From contig SFPH01000041.1 in the NCBI GenBank assembly GCA_004552115.1, forward strand, positions 1 to 6,876: a stretch of 6,876 nucleotides of DNA, in the 5' to 3' direction. This stretch comes from Bacteroidales bacterium (GTDB taxonomy: Bacteria > Bacteroidota > Bacteroidia > Bacteroidales > UBA932). The translations under genes were made by a program, and so were the position numbers. How positions within the stretch are numbered: the stretch's first letter is position 1; each line of letters opens with the position of its first letter. Below the pieces are notes generated by a model, which saw nothing but the letters and a program-made list of their open reading frames with translations, did no database searches and was not told the DNA's origin. This document shows positions 1 to 1,806 of this stretch, one piece after another.

Positions 1-108
1 GATGGAGCTGTTGATGAACAGCGTACCGCCGGGCACCAGCTTATACAGGAATTTATTGAGGCTGGGGTCGTTCATGACGATGAGATCGTCCATGCTGTCT
101 GCATCGGC
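1..108 (-). other. Segment resembling 2-oxoacid:ferredoxin oxidoreductase gamma subunit (KorC/PorG/VorC-like), in frame with leuS
   Basis: Residues ~567-602 of the leuS reading frame do not look like LeuRS. They read as DDLIVMNDPSLNKFL (573-587) and then VPGGTLFINSSI (591-602). The pattern of a hydrophobic 'DxLIxMNxPSLxKF' followed by 'KPGGxLxxNSS' is characteristic of the gamma domain of 2-oxoacid:ferredoxin oxidoreductases, which make acyl-CoA from 2-oxoacids such as 2-oxoglutarate or pyruvate. LeuRS should instead carry a block ending in DLYIGGxEHATGHL soon after LRYMDP. The breakpoint lies roughly between positions 90 and 126; codons around ALVSADAD could belong to either parent. There is no stop codon or frameshift at the join. 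The segment runs off the window, so it cannot be seen whether the KorC-like sequence continues. An assembly chimera is the simplest explanation; a real recombination fusion is the alternative. The family call rests on motif memory over about 30 residues. Confidence 0.7.
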
Positions 109-1806
109 GCTTACGAGGGCCTCGTCATTGCGAGGATCCATATACCTCAGATAATATGCGCTTGAACCTGCAAAACCCGGCATCGTGCTGGTCTCGAGAG
201 GATATCCCTTATATGTCCAGTCCTTGGCCCTGGCAAGCGGCGGTTCACCGGTCTCTGTCGGCTTGAACTGGTCAATCTCAGGCAGTCTCAACGGCAGTTC
301 CTCATATGGGAGAGGTGTAGGTATACCATCCTTGTAATATATAGGGAAAGGCTCGCCCCAATATCTCTGGCGGGAGAAAATGGCATCCCTGAGCCTGTAG
401 TTGACCTTCCTGTGGCCGAGGCCGTGAGCCTCCACATAGTCCATCGCGGCAGGAATGGCCTCCTTTACCGTCATTCCGTTCAGGAAACCGGAGTTGCACA
501 TTATTCCCTCCTTGGCATCGAAACTGTGCTCACTGACATCGCAGCCCTCGATGAGAGGTATGATCGGGAGGTCGAACTTCCTTGCGAATGCATAATCCCT
601 GCTGTCGTGAGCCGGAACCGCCATGATGGCACCGGTGCCGTAACCCGAGAGGACATACTCTGAAATCCAGACCGGAACCTTCTCCCCGGTAAGCGGATTC
701 ACAGCATAAGAGCCGGAGAATACGCCGGTTACAGTCCTGGTCTCGGCAATCCTCTCCCTCTCGGTCTTCTTGCGCACGTATGCGAGATATTCCTCGACCT
801 CAGCCTTCCTGTCTTCAGCAGTCAGTTCAGGCACAAGCTCGCTCTCAGGGGCAAGTACCATGAAGGTAACGCCGAAAATAGTGTCAACCCTGGTGGTGAA
901 GATAGTGATATCCTTCTCCCTGCCTTCCGTAAATGTCTTGAACACCACCTCTGTACCGCAGGAGCGGCCAATCCAGTTCCTCTGCATTTCCTTGAGGGAA
1001 TCCGTCCAGTCGAGGGACTCGAGGCTGTCCAGAAGCCTTCCGGCATAGGCAGATACCCTGAGCTGCCACTGAAGCATCTTCTTCTGCTCCACAGGAAAAC
1101 CTCCGCGGACCGAGAGACCGTCCTTTACCTCATCATTGGCCAGGACAGTTCCGAGTCCCGCACACCAGTTGACCGATGTTTCACCCTGATATGCAATACG
1201 GTAGTTCATAAGGATATCGGACTTCCGCTTTGGCGTGAACGAGTTCCATTCGGCGGCCGTGAAGTTCAATTCCCTCGTGCAGGCAGCATGGAGATCCTCA
1301 GTTCCCCTCGATGCGAAATGCTCCTCCAGCTCGGCTATCGGACGGGCCTTGTCGAGAGCCGTATCATAATAGCTCTTGAACATCTTTATGAAAGCCCACT
1401 GCGTCCATTTGTAATACTCGGGATCGCAGGTACGGAACTCCCTGTCCCAGTCGTATGAGAAGCCTATGCGGTCGAGCTGGCTGCGGTATCTGGCCACATT
1501 GACGGTGGTGGTAACCTCCGGATGCTGCCCGGTCTGGATGGCATACTGCTCGGCGGGAAGGCCGAATGCGTCATATCCCATAGGATGGAGCACATTGAAA
1601 CCCTTCAGCCTCTTGTACCTTGCATAAATGTCACTTGCAATATATCCCAGCGGATGTCCGACGTGAAGTCCCGCTCCCGAAGGATAGGGGAACATGTCCA
1701 GAACATAGTATTTGGGCCTCTCCGGGTCCAACTCCGCCTTGAATGTCTTCTGCTCAGCCCATCTGGCCTGCCATTTCTGTTCAATTTTCCTGAAATCGTA
1801 ATCCAT
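1..1806 (-). CDS. leuS: Leucyl-tRNA synthetase, 3' end missing and abnormal (class Ia aminoacyl-tRNA synthetase)
   Basis: Cytoplasmic enzyme that charges tRNA-Leu with leucine using ATP. The frame starts at ATG 1806-1804 (MDYDFRKIEQKW, the usual LeuRS N-terminus) and stays open for 602 codons to the window edge. Visible landmarks: FPYPSG followed by the HIGH-type signature HVGH at residues 48-51; the CP1 editing domain beginning near residue 280, with the threonine-rich motif TTRVDT (304-309) and GTGAIMAVPAHDSRD (390-404), whose D401 is the conserved editing aspartate; SRQRYWG (478-484); and PGFAGSSAYYLRYMDP (543-558). The WCAGLGTVLAND region lacks the extra cysteines of a zinc knuckle, which I believe is common in Bacteroidota LeuRS. 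Bacteroidota LeuRS is usually over 900 residues. After residue ~566 the sequence stops matching LeuRS (separate entry), so the catalytic second half, including KMSKS, is not seen. It lies 32 bp after the M28-like gene and is probably co-transcribed. No clear Shine-Dalgarno is visible. Identity is very secure; intactness is doubtful. Confidence 0.95.
   Translation of the reverse strand, partial: MDYDFRKIEQKWQARWAEQKTFKAELDPERPKYYVLDMFPYPSGAGLHVGHPLGYIASDIYARYKRLKGFNVLHPMGYDAFGLPAEQYAIQTGQHPEVTTTVNVARYRSQLDRIGFSYDWDREFRTCDPEYYKWTQWAFIKMFKSYYDTALDKARPIAELEEHFASRGTEDLHAACTRELNFTAAEWNSFTPKRKSDILMNYRIAYQGETSVNWCAGLGTVLANDEVKDGLSVRGGFPVEQKKMLQWQLRVSAYAGRLLDSLESLDWTDSLKEMQRNWIGRSCGTEVVFKTFTEGREKDITIFTTRVDTIFGVTFMVLAPESELVPELTAEDRKAEVEEYLAYVRKKTERERIAETRTVTGVFSGSYAVNPLTGEKVPVWISEYVLSGYGTGAIMAVPAHDSRDYAFARKFDLPIIPLIEGCDVSEHSFDAKEGIMCNSGFLNGMTVKEAIPAAMDYVEAHGLGHRKVNYRLRDAIFSRQRYWGEPFPIYYKDGIPTPLPYEELPLRLPEIDQFKPTETGEPPLARAKDWTYKGYPLETSTMPGFAGSSAYYLRYMDPRNDEALVSADADSMDDLIVMNDPSLNKFLYKLVPGGTLFINSSI

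Follow-up and report, generated by a model that had tools for sequence, protein, structure and literature searches.

Probable inter-species chimera at the end of a Bacteroidales contig, joining the 5' part of leuS to a korC-type fragment

Scaffolds that combine sequence from different organisms occur rarely but have been described, with phylogenetic profiles that differ between the two sides of the join (PMC7111523). Misassembled contig ends are regarded in PMC4270193 as possibly chimeric contigs or chimeric reads. The window analyzed here, a whole stretch of 6,876 nucleotides from a Bacteroidales bacterium, begins with a leucyl-tRNA synthetase (LeuRS) gene, leuS, whose reading frame passes into the sequence of a different enzyme. 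An earlier note on this DNA had put forward a misassembly or contig chimera as the leading explanation, and we arrive at the same view because the two halves match proteins that point to two phyla and an intact LeuRS identical over residues 1–570 exists elsewhere. Judged from their protein relatives, the two sides match different organisms, and the contig end is very probably an inter-species chimera, most likely a technical one rather than a biological fusion. A literature search found no paper on Cryptobacteroides together with leucyl-tRNA synthetase.

The frame concerned is a minus-strand open reading frame (1806..1) of 602 amino acids, stop-free and open to the window edge. The NCBIfam model leuS_bact (TIGR00396) scored 646.2 bits against it, and its best match extends to residue 567. 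The earlier note had described the LeuRS frame as canonical through PGFAGSSAYYLRYMDP, and its coordinates (residues 543–558) proved exact. Its estimate that the switch begins at about residue 567 needed correction, as the sequence ALVSADAD (residues 563–570) is native LeuRS and the change to KorC-type sequence falls at residue 571. The join contains neither a stop nor a frameshift, as had been claimed, and the KorC-type tail continues for 32 residues (571–602) before running off the window edge (Table 1). GGxEHATGHL and KMSKS are blocks of the LeuRS catalytic domain. The former, already reported as missing, was not found in the window, and the complete catalytic domain of a functional LeuRS, with both blocks, is not contained in a frame that departs from LeuRS at residue 571 and runs out of the window at residue 602.

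Table 1. Features at the start of the window and the evidence that defines them
Feature	Position in window	Strand	Evidence
leuS 5' part, LeuRS residues 1–570, Candidatus Cryptobacteroides-like Bacteroidales	97..1806	-	0 of 570 residues mismatched to P0001 and P0002; TIGR00396
Junction zone, codons 569–571	94..102	-	Window A-D-S; LeuRS A-D-R; all 11 identical KorC G-D-S
Foreign korC-type fragment (2-oxoacid:acceptor oxidoreductase gamma subunit), 32 mid-gene codons, cut by the window edge	1..96	-	All 32 residues identical in 11 of the 120 listed proteins; PF01558

Separate protein searches of the two halves, as the earlier note had proposed, led from residues 1–570 to intact LeuRS and from residues 571–602 to KorC-type proteins. 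For the LeuRS half, 5.8 billion proteins were searched, and the best 120 of 8000 scored matches were listed. The two proteins without a mismatch over residues 1–570 are both intact LeuRS of 921 residues, and P0003, P0004, and P0005 differ by one mismatch each. From residue 571, P0001 to P0005 all read RYWKAVDLYVGGTEHATGHL, whereas the window reads SMDDLIVMNDPSLNKFLYKLVPGGTLFINSSI, and an ungapped comparison of residues 571–602 with these five proteins gives 31 differences in 32 positions. The closest named LeuRS among the matches listed were P0006 (96%) and P0007 (95%), from Candidatus Cryptobacteroides sp. (Bacteroidota). The block GG[TAP]EHATGHL is complete in 117 of the 120 listed LeuRS (of 8000 scored); P0006 is truncated within it, and P0008 and P0062 stop ahead of the site. 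The motif NDPSLNK of the foreign tail occurs in none of the 120 listed LeuRS (of 8000 scored). All 19 relatives' loci followed across the site (19 of 80 genome loci) carry on as normal LeuRS, and at the DNA level alignments of the window's leuS end with relatives' leuS extend at most to window position 94. The possibility that the frame encodes a genuine, divergent LeuRS whose residues 571–602 merely resemble KorC is therefore opposed both by these 31 differences from intact LeuRS and by the identity of all 32 tail residues with KorC-type proteins; no point in its favor was found, and its probability is negligible. As a separate observation on this gene, P0002 equals P0001 through residue 639 and then shows 67 differences, and P0006 has 2 differences from the window ahead of residue 497 and 19 over residues 497–570. 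Such abrupt divergence among LeuRS that are nearly identical over long stretches may reflect recombination between strains within leuS or mosaics of strains created during assembly.

The last 42 residues of the frame aligned with the Pfam POR family PF01558 over profile positions 55–87 (E 0.0076). The scores of 16.9 bits for this piece and 12.3 bits for the whole open reading frame lie below the gathering score of 27.4 and concern a fragment only, and the 42-residue piece matched no NCBIfam model. The identification of the tail as KorC, which bears out its earlier assignment to the KorC/PorG/VorC type, follows instead from its residue-level identity with listed KorC-type proteins. For the search query, the tail was embedded in a KorC context whose flanks came from L111, a same-order KorC, so that the search was not tilted towards Bacillota. 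It yielded 318 proteins, and among the best 120 the tail was identical at 32 of 32 residues in 11, at 31 in 22, at 30 in 46, and at 29 in 41. Over the aligned stretch, the 11 identical KorC show 69.8–93.1% identity to five KorC named Oscillospiraceae (P0162, P0209, P0213, P0232, and P0238), versus at most 49.0% to 20 same-order KorC, the order being taken as Bacteroidales. Since Oscillospiraceae belong to Bacillota and Cryptobacteroides to Bacteroidota, the halves point to two phyla. Placing the 11 exact matches by their similarity to named KorC points to an Oscillospiraceae-like member of the Bacillota as the putative tail donor.

A donor from the same order was considered and found no support: the 42-residue tail gave weak matches (E up to 0.01; 33–48% identity) in 69 of 295 same-order genomes, and the 20 same-order KorC, drawn from 21 loci (L110 to L130), have at most 16 of the 32 tail residues in common with it. 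These figures also bear on the proposal that the host's own korC was joined to its own leuS by a within-genome assembly error. POR-domain proteins occur in 16 of 17 relatives' genomes, and the host probably has some; nevertheless, given the limited similarity of same-order KorC to the tail, the host would need to carry a horizontally acquired Oscillospiraceae-type korC, and we consider such an error highly improbable. Searches for donor DNA gave little: scanning viral_contigs with P0126 returned no match, plasmid records contained 17 relatives, each below 60% identity, and distant blastn with the tail as query produced 3 short, weak matches in plasmids.

The residues on either side of the join allow it to be located closely. 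The three-way difference between the window, LeuRS, and the identical KorC (Table 1) means that the change of parent falls in codons 569–571, with the Asp codon position common to both parents at window 97–99. The earlier note had thought that ALVSADAD could fit either parent. Aligned to it, the 11 identical KorC read [IV]GAPLGD with D570 alone in common, and this stretch was accordingly rejected as shared sequence behind the join. As deduced from protein sequences and the genetic code rather than from donor DNA, the overlap between the parents would come to no more than about 6 bases: the final base of codon 569, all of codon 570, and two bases of codon 571. Usual assembly k-mer sizes exceed about 6 bases, and a match below them argues against the collapse of a repeat; it favors a chimera at the level of a read or library molecule, or an end extension that lacks support. 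Overall GC does not separate the parts, at 0.53 for the first 95 bases and 0.54 for the remainder of leuS. Third-position GC, by comparison, is in keeping with a chimera: the 32 tail codons have a value of 0.84 versus 0.65 in leuS, a difference based on few codons.

An inter-species chimera would accordingly have formed when about 96 bases from the middle of a korC gene became joined to leuS of a Cryptobacteroides-like member of the Bacteroidales; the korC donor would be an Oscillospiraceae-like bacterium that presumably lived in the sample together with the leuS host. Likely routes would be a chimeric read or library molecule, arising in ligation or PCR, and a contig end extended without support, rather than collapse of a shared repeat. 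A common short read is longer than 96 bases, and a foreign piece shorter than such a read, combined with so few shared bases, makes a chimeric read or molecule or an end extension likely. The window edge is taken here to be the contig edge. Should the contig continue past it, the length of the foreign piece would no longer count, but the evidence for two phyla would be unaffected. Both parents are found intact elsewhere, among them P0001 to P0005 for LeuRS and P0121 and P0126 for KorC, as well as others, and the fusion is absent from the 120 listed LeuRS of the 8000 scored.

The remaining explanation is real recombination in vivo, in which one leuS copy received a korC fragment from a Bacillota donor, either as an insertion or in place of part of the gene. 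The earlier note had named a recombination scar in one of two leuS copies as the exciting alternative, and it gained no support here. The reading frame is open across the join, as this explanation would have it; about 1 in 6 joins would by chance be in frame and on the same strand, which makes this feature unremarkable. Against recombination stand the intact LeuRS elsewhere with the same first 570 residues and the absence of the tail from the 120 listed LeuRS relatives. Furthermore, Pfam searches of the five other window proteins found no transposase or phage family above the cut-off (the PhoH protein gave a weak IstB_IS21 match below it), and viral_contigs yielded 0 matches to a 30-base pattern of the junction, a weak test given that the collection is viral. 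We regard in vivo recombination as very unlikely, and its more specific form, a Cryptobacteroides strain bearing an Oscillospiraceae korC fragment in one of two leuS copies as a cross-phylum recombination scar, is likewise a long shot.

The remainder of the window is coherent, as five of its six genes are located together in relatives' loci: leuS and the M28/TonB_C, SPOR, PGA_cap, and PhoH genes are clustered within about 5.4 kb in L001, L003, L007, L008, and L011. Next to leuS, the window encodes a 448-amino-acid protein (1839–3185, minus strand) with an M28 peptidase domain and a TonB C-terminal domain, and homologs of this protein lie directly upstream of leuS in L001, L003, L007, and similar loci. 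A DUF389 gene (3810–5180, plus strand) lies between the SPOR protein and PGA_cap genes. Its protein had no match at E 1e-10 in the five loci with the cluster and was found in L010, L017, and L019, a distribution that perhaps reflects lineage-specific loss or gain.

If the join is an artifact, it has no biological importance; if the fusion were true, it would be a cross-phylum insertion splitting an essential gene. The locus illustrates clearly how, for a chimera at a sequence end, protein comparison by itself suffices to name both parental types, and it cautions that a terminal stretch shorter than about the length of a read is unfit for inferring gene fusion or gene loss.

Compared with known systems, the first 570 residues are those of a Cryptobacteroides-type LeuS (TIGR00396), being identical to P0001 and P0002, but the window lacks residues 571–921 and carries 32 foreign residues in their place before the frame exits. 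The tail equals the middle of 11 Oscillospiraceae-type KorC (PF01558, POR), but only 32 of about 182 residues are present, with neither start nor end. The arrangement resembles the chimeric metagenome contig ends treated in PMC4270193 and PMC7111523 in its foreign terminal sequence, at a presumed contig boundary, and in phylogenetic profiles that differ across the join.
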